Shown here: one piece after another, positions 14,827 to 59,677 of the stretch
Numbering within the stretch: the first letter of the stretch is position 1
How the letters are laid out: every line of letters begins with the position of its first letter
Assembly: GCA_950295325.1 (NCBI GenBank)
Contig: OX485804.1
Span: forward strand, 16,120,001 to 16,184,000
DNA length: 64,000 nt
From: Polytrichum commune
Lineage: Eukaryota > Streptophyta > Polytrichopsida > Polytrichales > Polytrichaceae
Reading direction: 5' to 3'
The notes under the pieces: generated by a model
What the model saw: the letters and a program-made list of their open reading frames with translations, nothing else
Databases searched by the model: none
Told to the model about the DNA's origin: nothing
Translations under genes and position numbers: made by a program

Positions 14827-15180
14827 CACTAAATAGTCCTATTAGTGTGGGTGGAAAATTAGCCTGAAAATAATTAGTGTGGGTTGCACTAATTTTCTAG
14901 TCAAGATGGAATTAACATGAGTCCAAGGCCCCGGGTCTTCCCCCAAGTCTTCATGAATACTTCTGACCAACACTTTGAATACTAGTTATAGGTCAAGAGT
15001 AGCACAAATAATCACCCACACTAGTTTTATGGAAGAACATTAATTGTGGTCCACGCTAATATTCTACTAGAAATTTAGCATGGTTGAGAATCAATGTGGT
15101 CCACATTAAATTTTATTATGAAAATTAGTGTGGGCTCTAGAAAGTTATTGTGGCCCCCTATAATAGGACTATTTAGTGCA
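14825..15180. mobile_element. TIR element with CACTA-like ends
   Basis: Left TGCACTAAATAGTCCTAT and right ATAGGACTATTTAGTGCA are perfect inverted repeats. The inside repeats ATTAGTGTGGG blocks several times. The CACTA start suggests a CMC/CACTA derivative, but no 3-bp target duplication is visible, so class is uncertain. About 356 bp, no coding content. Confidence 0.6.
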
Positions 15181-15467
15181 GTTTCTGCATGGGATTCAAG
15201 AAGTCTCAACTGATGTATGATTGACGCATGGCAATATGTGAGGAAAAACAAATACTTTTGTCGGAATAGAGAACCCTTTACAGTAGTTCAATTTAAGTTG
15301 GAGTGATTCGTCCATTACCCCACTTCAATGAAGTCACACAAACTCCAAATTTTGGAGTTGCTTCTCAAACATTATCGTGATAACCAAATACCTAATTAAG
15401 TACCTAAGTATGTGCAATGTGGACACATGGTTCTTGATAGCGTATGATCGCAAGTTCTTATGGCCGC

Positions 15468-15579
15468 TTACATAACATTATTCTTAGTATAAGTCTCCTT
15501 GCACTAGGTTGGGGCATTTCATAATTGTATTCTTAGGTTCACATGAACAAACACACATTGCTTAATAATGTTATGTATC
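15468..15579. repeat. inverted repeat TTACATAACATTATT...AATAATGTTATGTA
   Basis: Two ~15-bp arms 112 bp end to end. The same CATAACATTATT motif recurs near 15905, 47900, 48041, 58527 and 62710, suggesting short-element debris. Confidence 0.35.
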
Positions 15580-15599
15580 TAATAATTGCATCATAAGGC

Positions 15600-15830
15600 G
15601 TGTAAGCCCATTGTGGGCACTTCCCCGTCAACTTCATAGATCCTAAATCTCAGATCGGCCTATGCAAGGCTAGTTTGGCCCACCCACCCCAATATAACGA
15701 GCTAGAAATCATGCTTTTAATAGCCCAACAACACTATTTGTGTATTGATTCTCATAAACTCAGGGTCTAGGACCAAACCCATAGTTTCACCTACTTTACT
15801 TTACACCAATTCTAATGATTCCCAACCTTT
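15600..15830 (+). repeat. dispersed repeat, inverted copy at 46040-46270
   Basis: The segment (gcctatgcaaggctagtttggcccaccca ... aaacccatagtttcacctactttactt) matches the reverse complement of 46040-46270 over ~200 bp with scattered changes. Parent element not recognised. Confidence 0.6.
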
Positions 15831-18800
15831 CTTTGATGCTGCTTACACTCACATTGTGTAGGTTTGCCAAAGTGAGGCTTCAAAGAATGTGAATATTGGA
15901 TTTGCATAACATTATTCAACCTATGAAATGTGTTCTCTTTCTAAACCTACTAAAGATTCATCCCTCTTCCATCAACTTTAAATTCAAGCTGGGATTGCAT
16001 CAAGATTATTGCAACATGCATTTCTATTACAGAATCAGAGTGCATTCATAGGAAAGAGGTCAGGCTCTTCCCACTTAATTATATTATGCTGGTTGGATCC
16101 ACATTTGCTTGTTATTTAAGTGGATGAACTGAGTATGTGGGTGTTAGGTCCAGTTCAAATGAGCGCTTGGACAAAAGATTGTCAAGGGTCATTGGTTGAA
16201 ATAACATCTTTATCTAGTGCGTTGTTAAAACCTAGGGTTTGCCCACTTTGTCAACCCGTCATATCACCATCTAGTTTAGCCACTTCAGCGGAAAAGATGG
16301 AAAATTTATGGGTCTATCTTGGGGGTGGCTCCAAACTTCTATGGTGGAGGAACACGCATGCTTATTCAATTAGGGTCGGTTAGGGTTTCCGATAGATCTG
16401 AAGCCACATATGATGAATTAGATGGCACACACGACGGCCTAATGATGTGCAAGTACTTTGGGGAGACGAATGATCAATCGGAGTGTCAATATTGTTCACG
16501 CTTTACTCATATGCTTGATTGAATGAGGCCTTATGTGGGTCCTTTTTTTCTTGATCGGACACCTATATTTGAGTGGTATTGCAAGTCTTGTAGTTGCGAA
16601 GAATGGACATCAAAAAGACATGTGTTATAACTTTAATAAGATTGTATTGTACACAAAAAATATAGACACATTCTATGTATAATATTGAGCACAATTGGGA
16701 AGGCATGTATGAACGTTTAAGTGGAAGAGAGTCTTCGCCTTGCCTTCTTGTAATTTTTGCATCCAACCCCAATTCTAAAACTTAGAATGACAATCTTTGC
16801 TATTCACAGTTCCTAAGCCGATCCAACGGAGTAATATTCTATGAAGTAAAAGTGCCCACAATAGGTCCACATACCTTATAAGATGTAAGTTAAATGTAGG
16901 TGATAAGTAGGTTCAAAACAATTTGATCCAAGATTTGAGCAAAGCGCCATATGTCGTGCTTCTATTAGTCAGTTCCCATACAAAATCCAGTGTGTTGACT
17001 CTAAAAATTTAGCATTTCGGCACCAAAAGTGCTTGAACTTGCTTATCACCTACAGTATTGCAAATTTCTGGAAGATGTGGAATTGTCCATCAGTTGAAAG
17101 GGCACAATGCAATACAACCTCTCTTTTGATACCAATTACGCTTAAGCTGCCAAAGGCCCATCCTCACATGGCTTTACCAAATAACCAAAGTCTTTCTTGA
17201 AAACTAGGTAAAGCTCTCTCGGTTACAGCGGAGGCATTCGGCTATCCCAATGCACCGAAAAGAACTTGCTTTGGAGATTTTCAAGTAGGTTTCAGTGGAG
17301 TAGGTTTCACACATGTTCATTGTTTTGTCTACCAAGCAATGACGTGTTGGATAGACTTCGTCCCATCCCCAAATGGCTTACCACTCATCTATCTTACCAT
17401 TGGTTTTTGTTGGCTCTATCTATAGGATAGAGACTATGCATCAACTTCTTCGTTTCAAGGGCAAATTTCCTAACCACTTTGTGTTCACACTTGGACGTTA
17501 CTTGTTCTTGTTATTTTTGGTCCACTTTATGTAATGTGGATGTTAACTATAGTTTATATATATATATAAGTGCTCCCTAAAATGCATTGAAAGAAATCTA
17601 GTTAACTATAGTTATTTCGGTAGTTCTTGATTATTTATTTTAAAAATTTTGGGTGATAAATGAGTAGCTTCAATCCTTGACCCGTATTTGAGAAGAAGGT
17701 GCACAAAATCCAAGAAAGGTTTGGTATAGTGAATAGCCATGGATCGGCATGAGCAAAGTAATCAACTACAATTGTAGTCTTTCATAGCAAAGGACAGAGC
17801 CTCATGGTTCTACCGTTTTCTTGTTGTTAATGAAGCTCCTTGTGCCCTCATAGCTAATACTAAAAGCAACCAATCACAAGGACGGGAGGCGACACTTTTA
17901 AAGGTCCTACATTGTTGCCTCATGTCTAGGTACCGATGGGAAAGGTCGGTGCTTGAGGCTTAGAACCTCCGCTTTTAAACCATGCCACATCCTTTGCCAA
18001 CTAGGCTTGGGATTAGATAAAGCCGATGGTGTGAAGGCCGTGTTCTTAGAAACAAACTTTTAGGCTAAGCTAAAGTCATGTGGGAAAGGGGCATTAGGTC
18101 TGTCAAAGTTTAACTTTGGAGAATGTGAATATAATAAATATGTTGGATCTCGGTCTACAACTTCACATGATTCGAGCAATATCGGCTCTTGAGGTATTCG
18201 GCCTTATGGGGGCCTTATTGTGGACACATTGAACTCCTTTACATGTTTCTAGCCATTGGATCAGCTTGGGAATTCTTCCATCCAATTAGCAATTGCAGAT
18301 CATCAAGATTATCAATTCAAGTTTCAAGAAGGTTGAAGTAGAGACGCAAAGCTTATAATAATCCAATGTGAAGGTTCTCTTTCTCAACATATGATTACAT
18401 AGGCTCCAGCGTCCGGCAAGAGCCTAAGGCTAATACAAATGCAGCCTACAAAATTTGTGACTTAGCCTATAAAATTTTGAAAGTGTAGGACAAAGAGCCT
18501 ATGGACAATTTAAAAACATAGGATATCAACCTATGTGATAAAAAACATGTAGGAAATTTTGCTTACAAATTTTTTAAAAGAGAGGATTTTAGCCATTCAT
18601 CCTTCTTCAAATTGGGAAATTAGTTGGCCTAAGTACATATCTTTAGGCTATATCTTGCAGGAAGAGTAGAGGTTGAATCTGAAGATGGTGAGGACTTTCA
18701 CCCTTAAACTCATTTGAATTTTAGCAACCTTTCATAACTTATAATCAACTCTTTAAAAAAGAGTTGGTTAATCCATAGCATTCAAACGTGGTGAAGGGCT

Positions 18801-20980
18801 TAGCCAGGTTCAATTCCTGCCAAGGATACCACTTAGTACTCAAATTTTGAATTTAAAACCTACAACATTAAAAGATATGAAGGATTTTAACCTACTCAAA
18901 ATTAGTTTTGAAGGCAATTGGTGGGTAACTTAAAAACTCAAAAGGTTTTCAACTTACAAAAATTTGATATTGTAGTATGCAACCTATGCCATGAGGGAAA
19001 TAGCCTATGCCCTTTTAAAGAGGTAGGCGATTAACCTTAATAACTTAAAAAACTTTTCGGACGTTGACAGGATCTCCCCATTGTGTTCCCTATTGAAACT
19101 AGAATAGCATCTTTATTTTGAGCAAACAACCCAATCTCATTGGAACACACATCTTCTTGTGTCTGATATTGACTACAAGTCTTGCCACATACCATTGGGA
19201 GTACTTGTGCCCATTTGATTTTGAAGAGCAACAACGTAACGCTCATGTACCTTAGGTCACCTTGAACATCGTGGGACGTGTTTGTTAGGTATGTGGCTTT
19301 ACTACGGCAAGCCTATTGTGAATACTTCCAACCCCACAAATAATTTTGATTGTTAGACCATAGCAGTATTTGGCTCATCCGGCTGGTGATTGTGAATTAG
19401 GAAGATTGTCATTTCAAAGTTTCATTAACGAAGATGAGATGCAAAAGGTATAAGTGGAAATTCTCGTTCTCTTTTAGTGATCACATTGGCCCTCCCAATT
19501 GTGTGAATGGTTAAATCTAGAATGGTGTCTAGAATTTGAGCACAGGTTCAATCTCACTGTAGTCATTTTGGCGACTATTCTTGACTAAAAATCCTTGCCA
19601 GACACCACTCAAATGCAGGTGTCCGATCAAGAAGAGTGACCACACAAGGGGTCCACATACCTCAAGTTAGTACCTTGAACATGGTAAATAATATTCCTAA
19701 TTTTGGCTAGGTTAAGTTTGGGTAGATGTGTGCTATTCAAATACTTCTCTCTTTACACACAATTAGCGTGAGATGATTAGCAAATCCAAATCGTTTTGGA
19801 ACCATCCGCCTCATAACTTCCGGAGCATCTTACATAAATATCTCTGTCATTATGAAAACGAAGATTCTCCTACTCATCAAGTGATCGTATAGATCCCCTA
19901 ACGGTCCGAGATGACCCTAAACTACCGGGTGATAGTGGAGATCGAGGTACCCATTTCCAAATGAAGTGGTCGGCGCTTCAATCCCCGTTGCAAAATCTTC
20001 TCTCTACATGACGGAACAAAAGATTAGCTAGGTAGGTAGGAAGCCAAGAGCCCACCCACCGCAAGCTAGGCAATAAACCCCACCCTGCACCAAAGGAATT
20101 CTTGAACAAGGTAAGACCAACGGGCTCAAATTCACGTTGAATTGCCCGATGTTGGTTATTTATCTATTCATTCATTTAGATTCCCTAAACCATGTTGACT
20201 AATGAACCTGAAATGGACAACATATTTTGAGCACTTAGTCCAATCCCTTGCTAAACAAACGCCCTTCTTTAGTGACCGTTCTTAGACCCACACCTAACCA
20301 CATACCACTCTCAAATGTAGGTGTCCAAATTATTACGACGTTCGATTTAGGCAACCGGTCTACCTCAATTGATGGTGGGTGGATAAGTTACAACATGTGC
20401 GCATCATCACTTTACATGTAATGGTGCAACACCTTTCTTTCCTTCTTTCCTTCTCTCTTTCTTTCTTTCTTTCTTTCTTGCTTGCTTAATGCGACAACCC
20501 CAAAGATTCCCACAACCCAAAGACTACTACTTAGGCTGCAGCTGCACCAAAAACTTGGCGAAACACGAGTGAAGGTGAGAGTCCATGACGACCTCTGATT
20601 TAGGGTTTACCAAGTCTAAGCCAACGAGGGCCATCCATCTCTCGACCCCAATTGCAACAAACACGACACACAACGTACGGTCGTTAAAAATCACACGTTG
20701 TCTCCCAATTTTGAGCAAAACCAATGATCGGGGAGAACCCGGAACTTAGTGGTGTGGCCGATTCTCTTTCCCTTGTGCAATGGTAATTGTCAATCGCCTG
20801 TGTAATGTCACCAACATTGAATGTAAACCTTGCATTAAATGTCATTCATTGTGATGATTTTTGGGCACAACAAAAGTGGCATCTAGTTTCTATACTATTT
20901 TAAGGTTATTATGTTGGATGAATGAGAGTGCACTAGCACAAAGAACCGGGAGAGTCCACCACGGCTACGTAAAGATGAAC
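15831..20980. other. intergenic repeat DNA, no gene recognised
   Basis: AT-rich with no supported exon. Decayed members of a dispersed family are at 16550-16900, 19070-19330, 19500-19650 and 20200-20330 (marks: GAGCA...AGTCCAATCTCAT and CACTCAAATNTAGGTGTCC). A CTTT microsatellite lies at ~20440-20490. A possible tRNA-like B-box (GGTTCAATTCC) is at ~18810, without a convincing partner A-box. Confidence 0.4.
20440..20490 (+). repeat. CTTT/CCTT microsatellite
   Basis: A run of TTTC/TTCC tetranucleotides ending in CTTGCTTGC. Simple-sequence repeat with no gene beside it. Confidence 0.85.
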
Positions 20981-21309
20981 CGGTTGAGTTTGAGAATAAC
21001 CACTCGAAGTTCAACACTTCACGAAAGTTACCAATCATTTTAGAGGAATCTATAAAATGTACCTCAGATTTATAGAAGGAAAACCAAAAGACCACAACAT
21101 GTAACTAGTTGGACTTAGAAACACTAGGATTTGGACCGATTATGCTCAAAATCCTCCCCAAACATTGCGCGAGCATGCAATGATTCCTTCTCACCATCAA
21201 ATTGTTTGGGGCCTTGTATTTTTGAATGTCGTCAAAGGCCATTTTTTGTTGAATTACAAAAAATAAATTTTAAAAAAACTTGCTACAAACATAAGGTGAT
21301 TTGATTGTT

Positions 21310-21870
21310 GAGATGCAAGTTAACTTTTAAATGCCTAAGAAGTCAACAAGTGGTTGCAAGCATTTTTTTAAAGTCTTTCTCAAGGCAAAGAGGGGCAAAT
21401 ACCTACTCAAATCTATAATTGCAGGCAAGAGTGCCACATTTGTGCACCTTCCACATGGATTTACATCCACCAACACATGTCCAAGATATGTTGCATTGGA
21501 GTGTCATGCAAATTCTCATATCAATTGGGGATCATTTGCACATAGGAATCAACAAAAATACATGTTTAGGTTATGCTTCCCCAAAACCGTGGAGGTGACA
21601 AATGTCAAGTTCTGACTCATGGACTAGTTCCATTGTAAACTAGTTGAGAGCACACTCCCACATTTGAATTAATCCAAAAACAACTAACTTTGTTGAATCA
21701 AAATTATCCACATGGCAAAACATAGCAAGCATGAACATGAACAACAAGACTAGTTAAAATAGTCATGAAACCATCTGAACTAGTGTCAAAGGGGTCATAG
21801 CAAACTGCTCGCTACCATATTACGGTCACATAGGACATTAGGGGTTAAGATTTTTGTTCCATTTTGGAGG
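21310..21870 (-). repeat. dispersed element, inverted partner of 48700-49290
   Basis: The reverse complement aligns with 48700-49290 through several long blocks, e.g. AACTAGTCCATGA, AAACATGTATTTTGTTGAT, GTAAATCCATGTG, CAACATATC. Both copies have stops in all frames. Neither has a readable TIR or target duplication, so the parent is unknown. Confidence 0.65.
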
Positions 21871-21993
21871 AATATGCTCTCAAAATTAAGATTTGGTAGA
21901 GTTCAATGACAATTATCTTTATTCCAACCAGTGTATGGGTGTGTTCAAAAATTCACCCTTTACAAATTTTTATTTTATGTCGATTCCCAATAA

Positions 21994-22002
21994 GATCTTT
22001 GG
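21994..22002 (+). repeat. 9-bp target-site duplication, left copy
   Basis: GATCTTTGG directly before the left terminus of the palindrome, identical to 24575-24583. Confidence 0.85.
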
Positions 22003-22330
22003 GCCGGACGCTAAAGAAGCCCTATCGAGCTCTGTGCGCCTAAGAATCCGCGTCCCTTGGCCCACGTGTCAGTGCCCAAACCATAACTTTTTGGACCTGC
22101 CCACGTTGTTGCCCGCACCTTGCCAGACCGGATGGAACCTTGGACGGAGTTAGCTCCAACGACGTTAGTCATCCTTCGAGCCATGGATCCTCTTCCGAGC
22201 ATTGGGAACGTTCCCTATCTCCTTCCCATCGGTTTTCAACCACATTTGCTAATGTGTTATGCAAACGATATCTGCGGATGTGTTATGCATCAAAATCTCT
22301 GGAATGTGTTATACGTCGGTCCCAAATCCA

Positions 22331-22640
22331 AAAATGTGTTATGCACTAAATCCAAATTTACAAATGTGTCATCCGTCATATTCATGTTTACGAATGTGTC
22401 ATGCACCAGATCCAGATTTACAAATGTGTCATGCGTCATATTCATATTTACAAATGTGTCATGCACAACATCCAAATTTACAAATATGTCATGCGTCATT
22501 TTCATATTTACAAATGTGTCATGCACAAGATCCAAATTTACAAATGTGTCATGCGTCATATTCAAATGTGTCATGCACTTGATCCAAATTTGTGAATGTG
22601 TCATACATCGTATTCAAATTTACAAATGTGCTATGCACTA
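22331..22640 (+). repeat. ~30-bp tandem array inside left arm of foldback element
   Basis: About ten units of ACAAATGTGTCATGC plus a variable half (gtcatattcatattt or acaacatccaaattt types). Because the period is a multiple of three, several frames stay open and yield repetitive peptides (FTNVSC...). These are by-products, not a protein family I know. Confidence 0.85.
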
Positions 22641-23934
22641 CATCCAAGTGGAGGACGTTAAATACCCCCCCCACGAACTTTTCGGGGGGGGGATATTCTG
22701 TCAGGGGCAGCTGCCCGTCAGTTTTTCTGCACCCGACTGAAAACTGCTGCCCGCCCGCCCGACTTCGAAAAAACTATTGTACTTGCATTTTTGAAGGCTA
22801 CTTGTCCACAAATCCCATATTGAGTGCACTTCATTTTCAAGGTCTCAAATCCAATATATATGTTCACTTTCATTGAGTAAATAAGCAATTGACTGGATTT
22901 CATTTTCAAAGTGAAACCGCCAATAAAGCACAAAATAAACTTGGAAGTCAAAAATATTACAAAATCCTCATTAGCATTGAGGTTATAATTTTTGTCACTT
23001 ACAATTGAAAGGGACTTTGTCATTCTAAAGTGAAACTCAAATTGATGATTTTTTTTAATTTTAATAGTTTAATATTATATATATATATATATAGTTAATA
23101 TAGTTAGTACCAACTACTATCACAAATTTTTCATACGCATTTAAACTAGTTAAGTAAGATTGAATGCAACTAAGTCTAATAATTTCTGATTTATCCTAAT
23201 TAATCCTTTTTAAGCCCAATTGAATCAGATTATATGCGTACTAAATTAATTAAGCCTAATTCATCATAAATTATATTTACTGGATTTAATTCCATTTCAA
23301 TCATGATTGATTCCATGGAATTAACTCCAGTAAATATAATTTATGATGAATTAGGCTTAATTAATTTGGTAATCATATATTCTGATTTAATCGGGCTTAA
23401 TTAGGATAAATCAGAAATTATTAGACTTAGTTGCATTCAATCTTACTTAACTAGTTTAAATGCGTATGAAAAATTTGTGATAGTAGTCGGTATTAACTAT
23501 ATTTTATATATATAATATTAAAAAAAATTCATCAATTTGAGTTTCACTTTAGAATGACAAAGTCCCTTTCAATTGTAAGTGACAAAAATTATAACCTCAA
23601 TGCTAATGAGGATTTTGTAATATTTTTGACTTCCAAGTTTATTTTGTGCTTTATTGGCGGTTTCACTTTGAAAATGAAATCCAGTCAATTGCTTATTTAC
23701 TCAATGAAAGTGAACATATATATTGGATTTGAGACCTTGAAAATGAAGTGCACTCAATATGGGATTTGTGGACAAGTAGCCTTCAAAAATGCAAGTACAA
23801 TAGTTTTTTCGAAGTCGGGCGGGCGGGCAGCAGTTTTCAGTCGGGTGCAGAAAAACTGACGGGCAGCTGCCCCTGACAGAATATCCCCCCCCCAAAAAGT
23901 TCGTGGGGGGGGTATTTAACGTCCTCCACCTGGA

Positions 23935-24250
23935 TGTAGTGCATAGCACATTTGTAAATTTGAATATGATGTATGACACATTCACAAATTTGGATCAAGT
24001 GCATGACACATTTGAATATGACGCATGACACATTTGTAAATATGAAAATGATGCATGACATATTTGTAAATTTGGATGTTGTGCATGACACATTTGTAAA
24101 TATGAATATGACGCATGACACATTTGTAAATCTGGATCTGGTGCATGACACATTTGTAAATTTGGATCTAGTGCATGACACATTCGTAAACATGAATATG
24201 ACGGATGACACATTTGTAAATTTGGATTTAGTGCATAACACATTTTTGGA
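23935..24250 (-). repeat. ~30-bp tandem array inside right arm of foldback element
   Basis: Inverted counterpart of the left-arm array with the same variants but a different order: one unit of the acaagatccaaattt type sits near the outer end here and near the inner end in the left arm. Confidence 0.85.
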
Positions 24251-24574
24251 TTTGGGACCGACGTATAACACATTCCAGAGATTTTGATGCATAACACATC
24301 CACAGATATCGTTTGCATAACACATTAGCAAATGTGGTTGAAAACCGATGGGAAGGAGATAGGGAACGTTCCCAATGCTCGGAAGAGGATCCATGGCTCG
24401 AAGGATGACTAACGTCGTTGGAGCTAACTCCGTCCAAGGTTCCATCCAGTCTGGCAAGGTGCGGGCAACCACGTGGGCAGGTCCAAAAAGTTATGGTTTG
24501 GGCACTGACACGTGGGCCAGGGGACGCGGATTCTTAGGCGCACAGAGCTCGATAGGGCTTCTTTAGCATCCGGC

Positions 24575-24583
24575 GATCTTTGG
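24575..24583 (+). repeat. 9-bp target-site duplication, right copy
   Basis: GATCTTTGG directly after the right terminus of the palindrome. Confidence 0.85.
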
Positions 24584-26422
24584 CTCATGCTCTACAACAC
24601 ATCTTAAACTAAAATATGTGATTTCATTATGAATAGACAATTCATGCATAAGTCTAGAATTATCCATAACCTTATATACATGTTAAGAACGTCTGTCATA
24701 TGATCATATTGGATCCCCCCTACTTATAGTTTTACAAAGATGACCTCATGTCTATCCAAAGCTGCATATTTAAAATTGGCTTGTGTGCTAACTTAGGGTC
24801 GATTGCGTTAGGGTACACAACCAAAGAAAATTTGGAATCCCACAATCCTATCGGCTGCAAACTTAGGGTCGATTGCAAACTCATTCATAAGATATGTCTA
24901 AATAAATAAATAAATAAATAAGGCCGACCAATTAGCCCGACCGGCTTGGCTTTTGGCGTATGCCCCCACACCGGCTACGGCTTGCCGTGGGGGGCCTGAA
25001 CTAGCCAGGCTAGTTGGTTTATTTGGTTGGTCCCCCAGTGTGGCCGGGGTATGACAATAATGTAGGACCACCTTCCTGCCAAATCACGGTCATCCCAACC
25101 CAAGATACCTAATATGAGAAACCAAACTTCAACATATCCATATTATACAACTCCTCTCTAATGCTATGGGGGACCTTGAATCTCACATGCACTGTGCCCC
25201 CATTATTTTGACATGGAGAATCTTTTTGTTGATGAAGTTAGCATGAGTACTATAGCTTAGTCAACAAATTACACTGGCAGGTGGTTGCTGGAAGAGTCTA
25301 ATTACCTTAGCTCTCTAGCAACGTGGGCAAATAAAATAAATAATTTTAATGGTGCCTAAATTTAGGGGGAACTAATTTTGCTGAGTGTTGCAAGAAAATG
25401 ACATTCAAAAAGTGCCTAAAATTATAATAATGCAAGTGACAAACCTTAGGGTAAGGATATGTTGTTTAAGGGAAGTGTTTAGGTTAATTGTAGCCGCCGT
25501 ATATGAAATTAGAAAATCCATCCATGACTTGGATGAATGTCTAACTTATTTGATTTTTTTATAAAAAAATTGCCATAATGAAGACCTAACCTCCTCATAA
25601 CTTATTGAAATGGGATCACCGCTATTGACAAGAGAATTCCATGAGAAACACACTTATACCCAGGGTTGATTTTTCACAAAGTTTTTTCCCGTCCACGTCC
25701 AAAAACCTTGAATTGAAAGGCAAAAAAAATTGCAACCCGTCCCAAAACTGGTAATTTCTAAACCAACCTGTCCATGGAAAGGTTAAAGAAAAAACAACCC
25801 GTCCCAAAATCGGTTTGAAAATGAAAATACCCGTCCCACAAGAGGCATAAATAAGTCTCTTACAATGTTGGTAAAAAATTAGAAAAAAACAAAAAACCGA
25901 AAGATGTTGACATGTGATTGGTTGCACTTGGAAACAATAGGATCTTGACAAATTATGCCTTCAACATCTCTTACAATGTCTTTTGCTATCGATTCTCATC
26001 TTTCCAGTTCACCCCATTCTAAATTTTGTGGTTGATGAATTAATGTATGCAGGTGAATCAAGCACTTCAAGATTGATATTTTGATTGGGTATTAGTGGTT
26101 TGATTGCATTATGCTTATATTCACATGTCATAATGTAACTAATATTTGTACCATTTCCTTTTTTTGGAAAAAAATTATTTGAAAAAATTATTTTTAGAAC
26201 CTGTCCAAAGTGAATTTGACACGTCCAAAAACCGGTTCATTTTCTAAGAACCCGTCCATTGGAAATGTTTTTTTTATGAACATGTCCCTGGACATGTTAG
26301 GAACCTTGTGAAAAATCACCACTCCTTATACCGTCTGTGACTTCCTTAACACCAACCTTTTGGATGATTTGCTTTCAAGCGTCATTCAATCGGGCCTCTC
26401 CGGAAGTTAAGGGTAATATTAA
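24584..26422. other. intergenic DNA, no gene recognised
   Basis: No supported exon. An AAAT microsatellite lies at ~24901-24921. A GC-rich patch at 24920-25050 contains a CCCCACACCGGC...GCCGTGGGGG hairpin. Around 25640-26300 a short phrase similar to CCCGTCCCAAAA...GG recurs several times, probably decayed element sequence. Confidence 0.4.
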
Positions 26423-26608
26423 GGGCCGGTTTACACTACAGTGGAGAAGTCCACCGGTCATGAAAAAAGGGCGTTTCTCAATTGTGATTGGTCGAAAATG
26501 CAACTCTTGACCGGTGGGTGTTTACACTAGGTGAAGAAAACAATGTTGGTGAACTTTTCTCATGGATGATAAAATGACATGGCCGCCTACATGGCGGCAC
26601 TTTTTGGA

Positions 26609-26687
26609 GTTGGGCTTTTCCGGAGGAGGAGTTTCTTGTCCGGCCTCAAGAGGATGGACAAGAAACTCCTCCTCCGGAGAACCCAAC
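26609..26687. repeat. 33-bp-stem hairpin inside the PIF element
   Basis: Arms 26609-26641 and 26656-26687 (GGAGGAGGAGTTTCTTGTCC and its inverse) pair almost perfectly around a 14-base loop. It lies where the transposase sequence breaks off, so it may mark the internal deletion or fill-in event. Confidence 0.85.
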
Positions 26688-26714
26688 TCAATAAAAAATA
26701 TCATACAAATATTA

Positions 26715-27138
26715 ATTTGAAATACCATACAAATCGGCAAGTGTATGCAAAGTATCACCGGTTGCCAATCAATGCAATGTCAAAGAAATTCTACACTCTA
26801 TTGGAATACAAAGTCTTAATTTTGTATATTTCTTGCTCAACATGGGTCCAAGCAAATGACATAAATAAAAAAAAGTAGGTTTACTCACCCGTACACGATC
26901 TTTGAACATTTTTGCATTATATGATCCAAGAAGAAATTGTGACACATATCCACTTGGCCAGTGAAATTTCCACACCACCCTCTCCTTGCTCCCAAACAAA
27001 AAAATATGCCATCATCATAATTGAAGCATTATGGTGATACATGATGGTTTTTTGTATCGCCATAGTTGAAACGATAAAATATTTCAAAACCATAAAGATC
27101 ATAAGAGAGCACAAAATCTCTCTTCTTCGATTGTCCAT
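26715..27138 (-). pseudogene. PIF/Harbinger transposase N-terminal fragment
   Basis: Reads MDNRRREILCSL..., then after a frame change RVSKPTFFYLCHLLGPML, KLRLCIPIECRISLTLH, a TGA stop, and LATGDTLHTLADLYGIS. This matches the order of the plant PIF/HARBI1-like helix-turn-helix region (RMSRxTFxxLCxLLxP ... AIPVEKRVAxALxRLATG ... VxxLFGVxxSTV). It ends before the catalytic domain and carries at least one frameshift and one stop, so it cannot make an active protein. Confidence 0.8.
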
Positions 27139-27904
27139 GATTGAAGATCAAAGATAAGAAGAGAGAAATTGATGAGGATAATTAAGAGGAGAGCATGTCT
27201 TAAATAATACCAAAGAGCAGTGCTTTGTCCAATGTGTATGGGTTTTCCCCTCTTCATTCTTAAACACCCAAGGAGACATTTATTTCCTACATGGGCCAAA
27301 CTTGACGATTGGCAATTTGGCAATTTTCATTATCTTTTGAATAAAATTGAACATTATATTACACATTTCTTATGAACACAATTCTTGTAGATATCTTTTG
27401 ATACAATGTGAATGTAGAGAATTATGGTTTTTTATCACCAAAAATCTTCACCATTAGGTGAACTTCTCTTCACCGGTGGACTTCTCCGGTGGACTTCTCC
27501 GCTAAACTTCTCCTCTAGGTGTTTAGACTTCAACCGGTCAAGACTCCTTAAGAAATATTTTATTGCCTTTAATTCTTCTCCGGCACATCCACCATTTGCC
27601 TCATATAACCATGTCTTGGCCAAGCATTCTTCACCGACCGGAGGCCTTCTCCACCGTAGTGTAAACTGGCCCTAAGTAAAAGCAAATACACATGCATTAA
27701 ACATGTGGGATAAGAGAGATGGCAGCAATTGGTCACATGTGGAATTGCCATTGAGCTCCATATGTCATGCTCACATAATACAATAAATGATGTGCTGTAA
27801 ACAACTGAACACCATCCAGCCTTGTGGCTGAGTTCAGTGGGCCCAGGTATTTGGCCATCTATTCTTGGACACTTCTTGTGCTATTCTCCTTGACTACAGT
27901 GTCA

Positions 27905-28358
27905 GGGCCACTTCACACACGGGACTGAGAGCCCGTGACCATTGCACTTCAAGCACTCTCATTGGTGGAAAAGCCGGAGCCGGTCCAAGTTCGCTACTTC
28001 ACACTACACTTGAGGGACCAATGGAATATGTGAATGCAAGATGGATGTAAAGTTTACATGGGTTCCTACATGGCATTGATTGGATCATGTTTCATGGTCA
28101 CTTGGACTCTTAAAAACCACCTCTTGGAGGTAGGCCTAATACAAAACCGGGAGACTATGACATTCCGAACGCTCATAACTGTTGGTTTATTCTATTTTAT
28201 CATGTGTGAGGAATTGAAATCCATCTTGCATTCACATACTCCGTTGGTCCCTCAAGCGTAGTGTGAAGCGAACTTGGACCGGCTCCGCCTTTTCCACCAA
28301 CGAGAGTGCTTGAAGTGTACTTGGTCATGGGCTCTTAGTCTCGTGTGTGAAGTGGCCT
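27905..28358. mobile_element. PIF/Harbinger-like MITE, ~150-bp inverted repeats
   Basis: Left GGGCCACTTCACACACGGGA and the right end (reverse complement AGGCCACTTCACACACGAGA) begin inverted repeats that continue ~150 bp with a few changes. Flanks are TCA (left) and TTA (right), consistent with a TTA duplication that has since changed by one base. No coding capacity. Confidence 0.7.
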
Positions 28359-28799
28359 TTAGCTACCGGTATGTAGGTACTCATCAAGTGTTGGTTGTGT
28401 TGGGGCATGATGTAACATCTAGTATGTAAGTTAGTGTTGCAGTTCATTGAATTCACATATTGCCACTACATATTCCCCGACCAAGCCCTCACACATAAAC
28501 ATATCAAATACAACTCACCAATTAACACCATACAAAACAATGGATGGAAAGCCAACCCCCTCCATTACCATCACAACCGGAGTGAGAGGGGCTATACATG
28601 AACACTCCATAAATAAACTTGCCAATCTAGAAATCCCAAAATCCACCATTAGAACCTTCATGAAAAACATACACTAGAATGCCATCAAATACCTCACCTA
28701 CCTTGTCCTAAACAAAAGGGAACTCGACAATAAACAAGCCCCTGTCTCCCCTCCTTAATAGACTGAGATAACTAGTACACCTTCAGAACCCACCTCTCA

Positions 28800-28870
28800 A
28801 AGGGAGGCATAACACCTTATGTTGCATCACGATACCCGTGATCAACATTAGGCCAATGGGCTCACATTCA
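28800..28870 (+). repeat. short repeat shared with 57605-57700
   Basis: GGCATAACACCTTATGTTGC, then ATCACG...GATCA...GGGCTCACATTCA..., matches 57605-57700 with few changes. Family not recognised. Confidence 0.65.
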
Positions 28871-31384
28871 TGCTGGTACTTAGATACATGCTTTGTTTTT
28901 ATTTATTTATTTAGCGTTGCATGAATCACAATGCATCATTTTTCTACATTTGTTGTACATGCTGAACTTTGTGGCAGTTCCCCTTTGGATTAGAAGGTGG
29001 GTTTTTGATAGCCCAGCCACACCAGGAAGAGGGGGGGGGGGGAGGGGTGCACCGGCCGGGCTGGCTAGGCCCCCGGTGTGGCCACTGCATGAGAAAATGT
29101 ATGTGTTGAAAGCAAAGTGTGAATTCCATAAGCACATTCTAGTTTGGTTATGTTCTTATGAAATGTATACAAGACATTTGTCATCTTCTAAGTAGTCAAC
29201 GGTTGAGTTATTGAGGTCCTCCTTCGGAGCCGCATGATTTTGGAAATAGCACATGCTTTCAACTAAGCCTTGGTTGTTTTAGTGAACATCCAAATTACCG
29301 GCGAAGACTACCTTTAGGCTATTGCATATCTTGACACTACTTTGGACTTCTTACCATTTTTCATCTTCATTGTAGGTTTCAAGGCAAAAGAGAATGAACG
29401 AATGCTTTCAGGAGCAATATGGTGGTTCTTTGGGCTGCCATGTGGACGCATCGTCCTCGTCTTTGCTATGATGGTATAAGCTTAGTACGGGAGGCTTGTG
29501 CCAAAAGTGATGGGATTGGATTCATGTGGACAAGGATTAAGTTGCCTAGATGTTTGTGATTAGAGATATTGTAGATGTGGGATCTAATTGTAAATGTTAC
29601 ATGTCATCTCTACCCTATTTGTAAGATATAGAGAGGTGGCTTTTAATGAAACAACTCTGACTTTATGCAGGGTTATATGTGTGTTTACCCTTGTAAGCTA
29701 AGGTTATTTATGTAATTGTATGCCAAAAATGAAGGTGTGGATGCTACACTAGGTATGACTTGGAAGGCCTATAGTCCCACATGGTCCAGGATTTGTGTAG
29801 TCAGTGATACCCTGCCTAGGCGAGGATGCTCTTCTAAAAGCGGAGCGTGCAGTGGTGCACATGGCTTGGATGGTGCTGTATTTTATGACATTTTGGTGAG
29901 GTGGTGTTTTGGTCCCGTCCATGTTTGCTAATATAGATACATATGAGGTTTTTATCCGAATTGGAGGTTCCTCGACAAGGTGCGACTTTTGCTATAGGGT
30001 GGAAGCATTTGACCATCAAACTAGTGTAAGATTATGTTGAAGACTAGAATACGTTGTTAGGGGGAGGGGGGGATTATGTATGTTGTCGCGTTTAGGGTTA
30101 AGGGGATTGAGTGGGAGGGCTACCCGTACGAGTGTGTAAAGAGCCCCCCTGGAGGGCTACTTGTACAAAAATGCAACATTTGTATGCGATTGATTGTGCG
30201 TATTACATTATCTGAAATACATTGAAAGTTAATACCTTGTGGGTGTCATTTGCAGAAGATCGAGCAGAAGGGAAGCTGCAATCGGCCATTACATACAAGC
30301 GCTTAGCTTAGATCCCTTCATGTGATCGGCCTACGAGGAGTTTTATGTGCTATCGAATATGATGTGGAGGTTGTTGCCCATCTATATCTGGGGACATGGT
30401 GGCTTTCCAGCTGCAACAACTTGAGTTGCTTGCACAATGAAGCCCATTTGAGCATGAGGAACATGGGTTTTCTTTGCGTACACCATCGTCCAACAATGGC
30501 AAGCCCCCAACACTGGAGGCTCTACTCTGGTAGCTTTTTAGGCATGTCAAGTGATGCCATTCGCATTTTGTGACTCCTCTGCCACACTCACATGGGGAGA
30601 ACCGGCTCCTAATTACAAACAAACTAGTTGAGTTTGAGAAATAAGCGGTTGAGGTTCGAGACTTCAGGAAAACCACCGATCATTTTAGAGGAGTCTATGC
30701 AATCTACTTCTATAATCAATAAAGAGAAATAGAGAGACAACAATATGTAACCATTTCGCCCTGGAAGCACTAGGACTTTGACTGCTTAGTTATGCCCAAA
30801 AATCTCCCCGGACACAGGCTGCTCGGGTGGGGCCCCTCCTTACCTGCTGGCTTGGCCCACAAGCCAGACCTAGCCAATGGGACCCACTGACCCGATACCA
30901 ATGGGCCCCACCGGATGGAGGTGGTCCCTTGGCACAGTCACATGGAGACCGGCTGTTCCAGGTTGCATGTCCGGCCTAGCTGCCATGTGGGCCCGGAGTT
31001 GTTTTGCCTCTGGAACTTGCTGATTAATAAGAATATTATGGAGCAGGCTTTTCACGTTTTACTTATGTGAAATGTTACTTTTCAACCACCTCCCTCAACA
31101 GCGCAAGTTGAAGTAACTTGGGCCCCAAGTAAAGTTAAAGTCCAGATAAGGGCCTGGCTACAGAATGGCCAGCTCAGACCCCCCCCCCCCAACCCCCTTC
31201 CCCCTTATTTCCTTTGAATGCCAGCAGAGCAGGTCTTCATTGAAACCAATGAAGGCCACGTCACCATAGATACTTAGTGGGCCCGGGACCTGATTGGCCG
31301 TTGACACCCAACATATGCCACGTCACTACAGTTACGAAGTGGGCCCGGGTCCTCATGGCTATTGTTTCCCAGCACCGGCCTGGC
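28871..31384. other. intergenic DNA, no gene recognised
   Basis: Open frames are short and show no family signature. Poly-G (29030-29042) and poly-C (31170-31180) runs occur. 30600-30815 is the third copy of the block at 5385 and 20975. The stretch 29250-29700 is a little more gene-like in composition, but I cannot assign exons. Confidence 0.4.
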
Positions 31385-32520
31385 CCATTAGGTGGTATGG
31401 TATTTATTAGAGTCATATGGTATTTTATGTCACTATGGTAAACTCTTCGGATGACACTTCGTCATGAATAAGTGAACAAAATGTTGTCATGGAGGATGGA
31501 TGCGTTCATCCATTGGCCGAACCCCCTACCTTCTCTTGTCAACAGCTTGTGAGGAAATATTGTCATGGATGAATGAAATATGGATGATTAATTGCTTGGT
31601 AAGTGGTAGCTAGTAATTGCGACACTGTAAAAAATCTACAATCCCCTCAGAAAATTTACAAGGAATGACAAATAATGTTGGGTTACCATTTCGTGTTTAG
31701 GGTCAGTATATCGCGGTTTACAATCAGTATCGAGGAAGATGAATAGAATCTGGGACATTGAATATCATATTTAGTGTAGTTCATCCCATGTTGGCTTCAC
31801 TCGACTACACTAAATATTGTATTTAGTGCCGCCAATTCTATTTGTCTTGCTCAATTTGGATTGGAAACTGTCTGTGTAGTGTCACCAACACTTAATGTAA
31901 TTCCATCATTATATGTCAATTTCTGTGAAACATTTTGGGCATTACAAATGTACGTTGTTGCCAAAATTGTCACTTCTCAAGTCATTTTTTCATCCAAATT
32001 TCAATCGTCCATGGCAATATTGCATTACCGAAATGTTAGGGTGCAAAATATACCAAGTTGGATGACGCTTGTGACAAACTTATTCATAAGAAGTGTTATT
32101 AGAAAAGTTACTATAGTGATATATAATACAATGAAGAATAATAACATTACACTAAATATTATTTAGTGTCACCAAGTCTATTTGTCTTGCTCAATACCAA
32201 TTGTAAACCCTGGTGTAGTGTCACCAACACCAAATGTTCACCTAACAATATTTGTCATACCTTGTAATTATAGATTTACTGTGTTACAATTACTGTCGGT
32301 TAGTAAGTGATTTTTCCATCCAAATCTCAGTCATCCATGAGAATATTTCATCACAGATTTGGTAGGGTGCAAATTATACCAAACTTTGTTCCAATAATTG
32401 ACATTTGGAAATGAACTGAAAAAGTAAGTTGGGATGACAACCGAAAAAGTTACCACAGGGACATAAATGACAATATTTAGTGAAATAAGTAAATTAAATG
32501 GTTTGAATACAATATTTTGT
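31385..32520. mobile_element. cluster of three ACACTAAATATT MITE copies
   Basis: 31385-31795 is in the orientation of the 11637 copy. 31800-32150 and 32145-32520 are in the opposite orientation and follow each other directly. Shared marks are ACACTAAATATTGTATTTAG, TCTATTTGTCTTGCTCAAT, GTGTAGTGTCACCAACAC and catccaaat..tcatccatg blocks. Borders are approximate. No coding capacity. Confidence 0.65.
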
Positions 32521-34302
32521 GGTGCTAAGAGGTCAGCTTAATTATTAGGAAATGAAAATTGATTTTGTAGTTAATCGTTTATCGAAGGAACCTTCGTCGG
32601 AGGTCACCCCAGTCAACGATAGTCAGCGTGGGCATGTCGTCAACGCCTAGGCCGTTCTAGAGCCTCCTTATTACGGCGTATGCCGCACGCATCCCTCCTA
32701 CACCGCTGGCATTCCTCGGAGGCTCGGCCATGTCGGTAGCCTCGATTTGAGGTAGCTTGGAGTTTGGAATCCACGTCATTAAGGGAGTTGGAAAGTTGTT
32801 CCGATCCAAGATCAACCCTATTTTTCCTGGACTCCATGCATCAACGTCAGCTTCAAGCAATTGGGGTGTGGTGGGTGTTACGAAAAGAATCAAGTTAAGC
32901 TCGCATTTACAAGTGGGTAAGGGAACATCTCCTTGAAGGTCGTGAATGATTTTTGGGTTGTGTCTCGTGGTTGATTGAATCTCGTTCTTGTGTTGGTTGG
33001 TTGAATTTGAGGATTTTTCTTTTTATTGGGTTGCAAAATGGTTGTGATCAATGCGATTGCTGACGAGATGTTGTTAGTGGTGTGGGGATTTGGAAACACA
33101 GTGTTGTGGTATAGTTGAATGGCGTGGAGTTGATTTGTGATGAATTCGATGAAAGATCAGTTAGAGAACTCCAGGAACACTAAGTGGTTCACAATCCTAG
33201 AAATATCACGTCCACCAATTGTCAACATGAGAGGCTAAATTCTCTTGATGATAGATGTTGAAGATTGTTGTAGGTGTTTAGTGACGGTCTGGTGTTTTGA
33301 GAATCTTGGAATTCCTTAGAAATTTTGGATATCAAGGACAGGATAGCGAGGGATCTGTGGTGCATTTGACCAAGGGTTAAGGAAGGTAACCTCAACTTCT
33401 ATAGTGTAGAGCCGACTTGTTGCAAGAATTGTCACCAGTTATTCCAACAGCGAATTGACGGTGAATTGTCGGTAAATTGTCAGTGGCATCATTAAGGAAG
33501 CTCAATCATGGATTTTAGAAAAGTTCACATCAATCTCCTGCATCACATGATTATGTTTGAAAGCATATGGTGCAACCAGATTGATAGTATCAACAATTTC
33601 TACCCATGTTCTTGAGAAAACTAGAATCCCAGCGTACTAGCTGAGTGTTGTAGAGGGGACCCCATCCCTCTCTGCCCTTAGTTTCTACGGAGTGAAGCAA
33701 GTAGGGTTTGCAAAAGGTCAAAGTGCCACCAGGCCGTGCATGGTGTCCTGTTTTTAGGTTCTTGTAGGGAGTCTTAAAGGTACATCTTACATGTTTGGGA
33801 TTTTAATAATTAAGAATGAGCAGGTAGAAGGTGAGCAATGAGGTTACAAGGTTGCAAGAGGTGGCAACGAAGGAAACTGCGGGCGGAGACTGATGGGGTC
33901 TCCTCTGTAACACTTGTCCTAAATCTTGTACCGGAGGAACATATTGACTGGAAATGTGGAACACGGATTTGGCTTACCCTGCAAAGGGTTTTGGATAAAA
34001 TCTCTTCCAACTAGTGGAATGATGAACATGGCTTAACCCTGTAAAGGCTGTGGGAGCCTGATTTGGGACACTCAGACATACGTTGTTTTGAAATTGTACG
34101 ATGTGAATACAGTTTGTGCTGTGACTTCTTGGTAGATAGTGATAGGTTATTGTCTTGCAAGGTGATTCTTCTTGACACCCACACAAAGTAACTTGAAGGG
34201 AGTTTAATGAGCATTTCATATGGTCCGGTATGAAGAGAGAATACACGATTAAACTGAACATGCTAAAATCGTTTTGGGGCTAAATTACACAGGTTTGGCA
34301 GA
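32521..34302. other. region upstream of the GNAT gene, no gene recognised
   Basis: At 32640-33100 the minus strand has two overlapping open stretches with fairly complex residue composition (e.g. EADVDAWSPGKIGLILDRNN), but I recognise no family and see no splice structure; they may be decayed element coding sequence. The last few hundred bases before 34303 should contain the GNAT promoter and leader; no clear TATA box was found. Confidence 0.35.
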
Positions 34303-34839
34303 TTGGAGGCAATGAGCATCAGCGAATCTCAGGTGACCCTAAGGGCATTTACAATTGAAGACCTTTCCAGCTTCTTGGAGTGGGCAACAGACGATGCAGT
34401 TACTGAGCAACTAGTTTGGGACACATACACATCTGAAGAAGATGCGCGGAACTTTTTAATAAATGTTGCCATTCCTCATCCATGGCTGAAAGCTTTGTGT
34501 GTTGATGGCAAAGCCATTGGGTCCATTGTTTTGGAGAGAGGGATGGGCTTCGACAGTTGCACAGCAGTTCTAGGTTACTGCATTGCCAAAAAGTATTGGG
34601 GTATGGGAGTGACCACACACGCGGTGAGAAAGATTGTGGAGATGGGGTTCCAAGAAATGGATGTTGTGAGAATTGAGGCTTTGATTAAGCAAAACAATGT
34701 GGCTTCACGACGTGTGTTGGAGAAGGCAGGGTTTCAACTTGAAGGCACTATGTACAAATACAAGCTGATGAAAGGAAAGCTGCAGGATTGCTTCTTATAT
34801 GCAAAATATGCACCTGAGAACACTAATAGGCCATCCTGA
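34303..34839 (+). CDS. GNAT-family N-acetyltransferase, RimJ/p20-like
   Basis: A complete intronless frame of 178 residues. It should transfer acetyl from acetyl-CoA to an amino group; the substrate is not known. The whole length matches the plant 'uncharacterized N-acetyltransferase p20' group of the RimJ/RimL-like GNAT clan. VTLRAFTIEDLSSFLEWATDD (near 11-31) is the usual N-terminal strand and helix. IPHPWLKALCVDGKAIGSI (58-76) is typical of the group. Motif A, acetyl-CoA binding, is YWGMGVTTHAVRKI (98-111, an R/QxxGxG/A type loop without the leading R/Q). Motif B is NNVASRRVLEKAGF (131-144). No signal peptide or membrane segment, so probably cytosolic or nuclear. The first ATG is used; a second ATG three codons on gives almost the same protein. 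No operon-like partner. Confidence 0.93.
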   Translation: MEAMSISESQVTLRAFTIEDLSSFLEWATDDAVTEQLVWDTYTSEEDARNFLINVAIPHPWLKALCVDGKAIGSIVLERGMGFDSCTAVLGYCIAKKYWGMGVTTHAVRKIVEMGFQEMDVVRIEALIKQNNVASRRVLEKAGFQLEGTMYKYKLMKGKLQDCFLYAKYAPENTNRPS

Positions 34840-37089: not shown

Positions 37090-38169
37090 TTATCTTGGAC
37101 GAGGGGATGGTGGCGGAGTGTCTCGATTGTCCCAGAGCTGGACACTTTCAGGCACAAGAGGCCCATTGAGCACACTATCTAAGCTTTGAAGATCCAGGGT
37201 GAGGAATTGCGAACCTAAATCCTCGTTCTCCCAATGTGGAGGGAACGAGCCTCCAGCGCTCTCGAGCGATGGCGATGAGTTCGATCCCGAGTTTTGGTCA
37301 TCCTCCATGCTGTAAGGCGGTGTCTGATATGACTCATCCACATCAAATTGGTTCAAAAAAATCTCCAGCTCTTTGAATGTTTCCTTCGGCCTTGATGACG
37401 ATGACCCCTCACCACCACCACCGCCACCACCACCATCGAAGTAATGTAAATGCGGCTGATGAGGTTGTTGCTCCCATTCTTCCCTGCTAACCATTCTTTG
37501 AGGGTTCATGTTGGAAGACGATGTAGCCGTCCCGGCTACATCACCTTCAACTCGCCTGTTGTTGAGCATTACCTCCGACTCATCATCGAAGGATGATGAT
37601 GTCTCCCTAAACCTCGAAATGCTACCTGACTCCACTTGCAACGATTCGATATACCGATTACGCGGCTTCTCTACATCCATTGAGTTACTAAACCCTAAAC
37701 CCTCCTGTTTCTTCCTAATCTCACCCATTTCCTCTTCTACTTCTTCTGTGTCCAAGTGGTCGGTGGCTTCTCTTATAAAGTGTTCCTCCATGTCTTGTTG
37801 TTGCTGCTGTGAGAATCTGGCTTCTGTTCCGGGAGGAGTGTTAGGTTGGTAATTTGGGAGGTTAAGCTCAGCCATCGGTCCGTAGAGCTTGAGAGCTGCA
37901 ATGTCGTAAGCGCGGGCGGCTTCCTCTGCGGTTGAAAACGATCCTAACCAAAGGCGGGCTCTCTTCTTTGGCTCTCTAATCTCTGCCACCCATTTGCCCC
38001 ATGTGCGTTGTCGAACACCACGAAACTCACAGGCTGCGTTCTCTGGCCCGCCTTTTCCCTTCATCGACCCTTTCTTCCATCTTTTGCCTGGCTTGCGTAT
38101 TGGCTTCTCAATGTGGCCGCTCGTCGGGGACAGCTGCTTGCCTTCCCCCAATGTGTTGCCTAACTGCAT
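37090..38169 (-). CDS. AP2/ERF transcription factor, DREB A-2-like
   Basis: A complete intronless frame of 359 residues. One AP2 domain (~48-106): [20 protein letters not shown], then RLWLGSF and [20 protein letters not shown]. It binds GC-rich promoter elements (DRE/CRT type, A/GCCGAC), with V61 and E66 at the V14/E19 positions that mark DREB specificity. Just before it, KGKGGPEN (38-45) is the CGKGGPxN-like motif of subgroup A-2 (DREB2/ABI4-related). Basic [13 protein letters not shown] (23-35) is a likely nuclear signal. Downstream are a Gln run (~122-127), an acidic segment, a Gly run (~245-252) and a serine/acidic C-terminus that could activate transcription. DREB2 proteins respond to dehydration and heat; that role here is inferred. 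The exact paralogue is not assigned. Confidence 0.93.
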
Positions 38170-38261
38170 TCCGAACCGACGAAGTGTACCTATCGTAATT
38201 GCTGTCGAATGAATTAAAAAAAATAAAAAATCTCTCCCCCTAATCCCCTGTTCCTATCCTC

Positions 38262-48699: not shown

Positions 48700-49290
48700 C
48701 CCCTTAACCCATAAGTTCCTATGTGACCATAATTTGGTCGTGAACAAATCACTTTGACCCCTTTGACACCAGTTCACATGGTTTCTTGATTGTTTCAACT
48801 ACTCCTCTTGTTCATGTTCAAGTTTGCTATGTTTTGTCACGTGGATAATTTTGAATGAACATAGTTAATTATTTTTGGATTAAATTAAATATGAGAGTGT
48901 GCTCTCAACTAGTTTCCAATGGAACTAGTCCATGAACCAAAACTTGACTTTGTCATCTCTACAGTTTATGGGCATGATACCCTAAACATGTATTTTGTTG
49001 ATACATATGTGCAAATGATGCATAGTTGATTTGAAAGTTTGCATGACATTGAAATGCAACATATCCTAAACATCTACCGTTGGAATTTTTACTTAGACAT
49101 GTGTTACTGGGTGTAAATCCATGTGAAAAGTGCGCAGTTGTGGCACCGTTGCCTCAAATTGCAAAGCTTCCCAAAAAAATCATGAAATAACGATTTCAAG
49201 ATTTGTGAGTTGATTTGAAGAGGTACATTTGCCTTCTTTTGAATGAGGGTAACATTTTGTTATTTAGAGATGATTTGAGTGAAGGTGTAA
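48700..49290 (+). repeat. dispersed element, partner of 21310-21870
   Basis: See 21310-21870; same blocks in opposite orientation, many stops. Confidence 0.65.
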
Positions 49291-58937: not shown

Positions 58938-59677
58938 TTTAGTGTGCCTCGCACTAATCATCATCGACCCACATGAAATGCATCGTATTCACTAGGAGAC
59001 AATTAAAGAGGGTGTCATGTGTCACATGTCACTTGCTGGTCCGTGACAAGTCACAAAGACCACTCTAATCAGCATGGCACACCAATTTCAATGTCGCACT
59101 AAATCAACGTTTAATTTACCAACTCGGGAGCGGCATGGATGGATTGCTAGCAGACACCCTTTTTGACCATGGTGTGTGTTGCCAAATACGATGACCATAA
59201 AGTAAAAAGAGCATGTTCGTTAAAAGCAAATCGACAAGGCAAGTAGGTCAATGAAGTCCAATTCCTAGGAAACTCTCATATCGTGCCACTCAAAAATGAA
59301 ACCGAAATCGTTCAACAACTTTAAGTGATGATAGATAGATATTGGTGTGCTACAAGTGGACAATGTTGAGCATTGACTTATAGAGAGAGACACACAATTC
59401 TCATGTACTACACTATATCAGGATCTTTGGCCCCCATTCAAGAACCCATTATTCTTAAAATAGCAAGAAATGTTACGAAACATTGCTCTCTCTCTCATTA
59501 CAAGTTTTTTCATCACGTAGCTTTATGATACCCCATAGAACCACGAATTGCCACATCACATCACATGTGGGTGTACCATTGGAGCCACGGGTTTTGACCA
59601 CCTACATCACCCCTTTATTCATGTGCCAAAAAGCAACACGTGCACGTCGGTGATTGCCAACACCTACCTTATAGACT

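Follow-up and report, generated by a model that had tools for sequence, protein, structure and literature searches.

A non-autonomous foldback Mutator-like element in Polytrichum commune that joins two element families in one palindrome

Spacerless palindromes of kilobase length are usually regarded as unstable. What, then, is the 2,572-bp palindrome at 22003–24574 of our window (the whole 64,000-nucleotide stretch of DNA analysed here), how did it become mirror-symmetric, and do its arms stay alike? The initial annotation had described a nearly perfect 2.57-kb palindrome without a spacer, flanked by a 9-bp duplication, and had read it as a foldback Mutator-like element (MULE). Direct reading and alignment confirmed the palindrome to the base. 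The left arm (22003–23303) and the right arm (23304–24574) show 21 mismatches in 1,238 aligned columns (98.3% identity) and 6 gap openings, the gap differences including 30-bp array-unit differences and an AT tract near 23,070. The arms meet at TCAATCATGATTGA (23297–23310), which occurs once within the window. No spacer separates them, but the claim needs one qualification, as the centre is imperfectly paired over ~44 nt under a criterion of 12 consecutive matches. The flanking duplication is exact, with GATCTTTGG bounding the element on the left (21994–22002) and on the right (24575–24583); a third occurrence in the window lies at 59422. Its own sub-repeats aside, the element exceeds in length every other inverted repeat in the window's listing (1,077 nt ungapped, 96%), where the next independent pair spans 249 nt at 84%.

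A diverged inverted repeat pair of another repeat family (21466–21849 and 48703–49084, 78–84%) ends ~150 bp to the left of the element. Pfam searches were run on two open reading frames of the window and gave a GNAT acetyltransferase reading at 34267–34839 (plus strand) and an AP2-domain reading at 37090–38253 (minus strand). Rfam returned 0 matches at the gathering threshold for window positions 15000–32000.

Each arm consists of two parts, which come from two transposable element families, a feature that the initial annotation had not mentioned. The left outer arm (22003–22649, plus strand) begins with a TIR, GCCGGACGCTAAAG..., that extends to ~22238 and is matched elsewhere in the genome by a 198-bp query. 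It continues with a tandem array of ~30-bp units (~22332–22647) that is common to transposase-bearing relatives. The outer part is 647 bp long in each arm, and the exact terminus of an inner MULE follows it directly. The left inner arm (22650–23303, plus strand), from a second foldback MULE family, starts with GGAGGACGTTAAATACCCCCCCC, at the same base as copies outside the composite. Near this terminus, direct reading and a fold test revealed a C8 ... G9 stem (22665–22692, plus strand), and the region 22640–22780 folds better than its shuffles (z −2.83). The right inner arm (23304–23927, minus strand) was placed by alignment to the left arm and has its minus-strand terminus, GGAGGACGTTAAA, at 23927. 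The right outer arm (23928–24574, minus strand), comprising the tandem array and the outer TIR GCCGGATGCTAAAG..., was placed by arm alignment, genome matches and the array. The element therefore has the form of a foldback transposon, with long TIRs that carry subterminal tandem repeats and are able to fold into one hairpin. Its ~1.3-kb arms also agree with the long TIRs of the Mutator superfamily, and are longer than the TIRs of 14–500 bp given in the available part of one MULE survey (PMC6446971).

We searched the same assembly (407.8 Mb, 64 contigs) for further copies. With the first 198 bp of the element as query, we scored 40 matches among 148 candidates, which are not to be equated with confirmed copies. 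Eight inverted pairs 1.35–2.57 kb apart, the window's pair included, were found among the matches. The terminal pattern GSCGGACGCTAAAGAACMCC hit 66 sites within one mismatch, compared with 0 for the reversed control, a search that also gathers a third end type, GGCGGACGCTAAAGTACCCC. For the 14 outer-family members listed with both ends, the duplications agree at 9/9 positions in 10, 8/9 in 2, 7/9 in 1 and 5/9 in 1. The ten include L012, a near-identical neighbour of L011. These two composite copies (L011, G000:C2:24399514–24401891; L012, 24444444–24446821) lie 45 kb apart and show one difference in 2,978 bases, 300-bp flanks included. We therefore counted them as one event, which may reflect segmental duplication or a copy introduced in assembly. 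Eight further end pairs carry 9-bp duplications matching 9/9 in six cases and 4/9 and 3/9 in the other two. The genome search proposed in the initial annotation thus returned more copies that share the element's ends and are each flanked by a separate 9-bp duplication, a length within the 8–11 bp given for Mutator target sites in the available text of the survey (PMC6446971).

A possible 61-kb element (C5:44010107–44071263, with L046 and L047) has outer-family ends and a 7/9 duplication. Its arms measure ~2.07 kb, with 95.1% identity over the whole 2,078-column arm and 99.3% over the ~813 bp past the inner part. In a composite locus on another contig (L020/L021, G000:C7:39831634–39850616), ~17 kb of other DNA interrupts the left TIR near position 200, and the outer 9-bp duplication is intact. 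For the window's own insertion, the genome query consisted of the 200 bp to the left of the element, up to and including one duplication copy, fused to 200 bp of right flank. Besides both flanks, this found only short matches, none of them across the join, and no empty site without the insertion.

Long palindromes can be misassembled, and a false inverted duplication is one rival reading of the locus. Such an artefact would have to coincide with an exact 9-bp duplication outside the element ends, with 21 substitutions and 6 gap openings between the arms, and with an architecture common to many loci with different flanks. We consider this explanation close to negligible.

Evidence for the MULE assignment came from five longer elements that share the outer ends (L015; L017; L018/19; L022/23; L024/25). 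They have TIRs of ~540–810 bp and contain homologous transposase pieces. In partial readings, L015 matches the MULE transposase domain PF10551 at the cut-off (27.6 bits, 4.1e-6) and L018 just below it (26.8 bits, 7e-6). A partial reading of L087 scores above the cut-off (28.5 bits, 2.1e-6). This locus sits within C2:8032999–8047225, an element with a 9/9 duplication and ends of the inner type (GGAGGACGCTAAACACCCCCCC). These readings, all of them partial, place MULE-transposase remnants inside elements that share their ends with the window's. Pfam gave no MULE match for two larger open reading frames of L087 or for further pieces from the transposase regions of L017, L018 and L023. A DDE_Tnp_4 transposase reading, which we take to be of PIF/Harbinger type, lies inside the 18.6-kb MULE copy at L022 (L022:8243–8893, minus strand) and is probably a nested element.

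Four transposase pieces compared with the window by tblastn gave no match, so the window's copy is non-autonomous, as the Mutator superfamily allows. With further copies that share its ends and have their own duplications, and with PF10551 remnants in its relatives, the foldback Mutator-like identity proposed at the outset holds, and the data support a real, non-coding, non-autonomous foldback MULE. From the shared ends, the duplications and the transposase-bearing relatives, we infer mobilisation in trans: a MULE transposase made elsewhere would recognise the GCCGGACGCTAAAG ends, move the element and leave the 9-bp duplication.

The inner part has a distribution of its own. The arm middle (22720–23060) gave 3,166 first-look candidates in the genome, of which 40 were scored; these again are candidates rather than confirmed copies, and the query differs in length from the 198-bp outer one. 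The inner terminal pattern has 247 exact genome sites, compared with 0 for the control. Where the inner family occurs outside the composite, its copies have GGNGGACG(C/T)TAAA-like ends and begin at the position that corresponds to 22650. Among 11 inner copies listed with both ends, 8 have 9/9 duplications, and no such duplication is seen in L033, L034 and L035. In a separate set of 20, the duplications are 9/9 in register in 17, 8/9 in one, and 9/9 after a one-base offset in two. This set was drawn from the listed part of the 247 pattern sites, where 27 plus/minus pairs 0.7–1.5 kb apart were noted, window excluded, and the 20 on C1 and C2 were taken; selection by such pairing favours intact elements. 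Two places carry double labels (L058 is L041, and L053 is L043). Because independent inner copies have their own ends and 9-bp duplications, the segment 22650–23927 is a foldback MULE family in itself, and it is more abundant than the outer family. The terminal bases of the two families are alike at 11 of 15 positions, and no local match longer than 14 bp was found between the outer and the inner arm. We also considered the inner part as a Tc1/mariner-type insertion at the central TA (AAATA|TATTT). This reading was dropped because inner copies elsewhere carry 9-bp duplications and start 15 bases further out, at GGNGGACG.

To trace how the two families came together, we compared the junction between them across loci. 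On its array side it reads CTACATCCAAGT or CTACATCCAGGT, with small variants, and GGAGGACGTTAA comes next. Of the 13 composite loci, 11 have the junction in one arm or both (L012 excluded; L046 and L047, the two ends of one probable element, scored separately), and the window, L009 and L011 have it in both. L010 and L048 are without it, owing to a shared deletion that joins CACTTGATCC to TGCCCGTCAA. A junction found in 11 of 13 loci indicates that the hybrid was inherited and not newly made at the window; it predates the insertion there. The suggestion that the high arm identity reflects recent formation at this site is accordingly not supported, the composite and its junction being common to other copies.

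Locus L026 shows where the junction was made. It has an outer end without the inner part, and its 19 bases up to the junction are identical. Past the junction point it continues with more array units, common to L022 and L018. Since the array runs on past the point at which the exact inner terminus is attached elsewhere, the inner end was joined inside the outer array, as transposition would do. Insertion of an inner foldback MULE into the middle of an outer one, with nothing more, would fit this junction as well as the ability of the inner family to move alone with 9-bp duplications and the existence of outer elements without an inner part (L015, L017, L018/19, L022/23 and L024/25). Plain nesting would, however, leave a direct duplication at the inner boundaries, and around the window's inner part we found agreement at 1/9 positions at the exact boundary and 7/9 in the best of the registers tried. 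Moreover, in the window, L009 and L011, the same array sequence stands mirrored at both junctions. The process may have begun with insertion, and symmetrisation must come after it; on its own, nesting is a very unlikely account.

We favour a sequence of events that most likely began with transposition of an inner element into an outer arm. The half that ends at the inner centre would then have been copied to the other side, giving one mirror-symmetric unit and erasing the inner duplication; the mirror image could have arisen later than the joining or in the same event. The hybrid unit then spread, as the shared junction shows. Thereafter, patches of one arm can be overwritten from the other, as a deletion marker supports for L010.

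This last step bears on whether the arms are corrected against each other, which the initial annotation had offered as a second explanation of their identity. A single origin of the palindrome followed by independent divergence of its arms would make left arms group with left and right with right across copies. In a tree built from the inner core of 31 copies, own arms paired in 19 of the 31 and accounted for 19 of 23 cherries; with shuffled labels, the mean was 0.36 and the maximum 3 in 2,000. The tree kept 62 of 78 arms (omitting L012, L053, L058, arms with less than ~300 bp of core and one-armed copies). All cherries of the fully resolved tree were counted, regardless of support, and several same-copy pairs sit on weak forks. 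The cross-copy pairs include L056/L057 and L039/L051. Whole composite arms are supported same-copy sisters in 4 of 7 copies (the window, L009, L010 and L011) and are not same-copy pairs in L013, L014 and L021. Over the outer 236 bp, own arms paired in only 5 of 13 copies. The window's arms are separate there, and those of L017 and the C4:51733 copy pair crosswise, which is the expectation without correction. Variants private to one of the seven composite copies number 95 on one arm and 16 on both.

The clearest marker is the deletion at L010 (G000:C3:8381366–8383506), a copy with a 9/9 duplication whose arms show 0 mismatches in 1,011 columns and 3 gaps. The deletion is on both arms of L010. 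In L013, L014 and L021 it is on one arm with the intact junction on the other, so that the arms of these three still differ at this place. Most simply, an ancestor had unlike arms, three copies inherited them as such, and one arm was overwritten en route to L010. In addition, the inner arm of the window contains a 366-bp difference-free tract (P 0.0042 under uniform placement), the arms differing elsewhere; in the other five copies tested, P was above 0.05.

Alternatively, there may have been no correction, the nearest sources being unsampled or one half having been duplicated afresh when a copy formed. The sampling is indeed partial (40 of 3,166 inner candidates scored), the outer arms are mostly unpaired by copy, and re-formation of a whole half could also have produced L010. 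Any source missed by the sampling would, however, have needed symmetric arms of its own, and both the 366-bp tract and a deletion on both arms of L010 but one arm of three relatives argue against it. The deletion marker lowers the odds of this alternative, as it does those of plain nesting, and we regard an absence of correction as unlikely while giving it some weight. The proposed arm-to-arm correction is thus upheld by the inner arms and the L010 deletion, and not by the window's outer 236 bp or by the three relatives with unlike arms. We read the overwriting as occasional and patchy, at the copy or its source, with conversion as the likeliest route and re-formation of one half from the other as an alternative that we do not prefer. 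Conversion could take place during repair of a break, gap or hairpin, and the arms may themselves form a hairpin or cruciform that possibly serves arm-to-arm repair. Taken together, the best explanation of the locus is a trans-mobilised, non-autonomous foldback MULE with a hybrid arm that spread as a unit and underwent patchy arm overwriting, to which we assign a probability of about 0.88.

The symmetry also raises the matter of hairpin RNA. Of the 1,261 distinct 21-mers of the left arm, 898 also occur in the right arm, and 39–223 of these both-arm 21-mers are found in each of nine outer-family loci (L015, L017–L019 and L022–L026; six elements). A role like that of Mu killer in maize is possible. 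The available text on Mu killer describes an inverted duplication of MULE sequence including TIRs, as in the element here, with a proposed long hairpin RNA (PMC3440606). Mu killer carries transposase-gene sequence, in contrast to the window, where the four transposase pieces had no match. More speculatively, the composite palindrome might be a self-maintaining hairpin, its symmetry kept by overwriting, whose read-through siRNAs would hit the TIRs of both families, making it a two-target counterpart of Mu killer; we think this doubtful.

Beyond the single locus, this genome has many spacerless kilobase palindromes with intact target duplications, and two MULE families can fuse into one spreading unit. 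With a deletion common to several copies and a composite family of small size, the frequency of arm overwriting can be asked directly. The family also opens questions about how foldback transposons form and whether their hairpins feed the silencing of autonomous relatives.

Our survey of literature on palindromic MULEs, foldback elements and arm conversion, in the parts available of each source, found no two-family palindromic MULE, and we do not claim that the arrangement is unpublished. Homogenisation has been suggested for two of three complete Tetris elements (PMC4079207); no discussion of it was found in the available part of the Galileo report (PMC2775673). FARE of Arabidopsis combines foldback architecture with a MULE transposase, and resembles our element in that architecture according to the citing descriptions alone (PMC4486113, PMC3169594). 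Tm1 of root-knot nematodes, a Mutator/Foldback family (PMC3169594), and Muta1 of Aedes aegypti, a foldback MULE (PMC5225508), share with it MULE transposase relatives, 8–9-bp duplications and TIRs with subterminal tandem repeats. They differ in occurring in animals and in having repeat units of ~14 and 12 bp, and their descriptions, as far as available, are without a two-family palindrome.

Among plant elements, MuTAnT of Medicago truncatula comprises non-autonomous MULEs in which two long, near-identical TIRs make up almost the whole element, and a related element encodes a mudrA-like transposase (PMC4486113). Both the long TIRs that fill the element and the coding relative have their likeness here. 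MuTAnT is smaller (292 bp for the first element and ~200 bp to >1.6 kb in the family, compared with 2,572 bp here) and sits in TA microsatellites, and the available part of its description mentions no two-family composite (PMC4486113). Tandem-TIR MULEs of plants have external and internal TIRs, are mostly non-autonomous and were amplified as units (Ferguson and Jiang 2012, PMC3310237). Tandem TIRs are reported at both ends in Arabidopsis and in tomato, where no inner target-site duplication is present (PMC3310237). As in their types 1 and 2, external and internal TIRs stand at both ends of our element, with no duplication around the internal TIR. In those MULEs, likeness between the external and the internal TIR extends over at least 100 bp (PMC3310237, available text). 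Here it is confined to the first dozen or so bases (11 of the first 15), and the whole element is one palindrome. With its two families and full palindromic symmetry, the unit represents a variant of the foldback and tandem-TIR MULEs already known.
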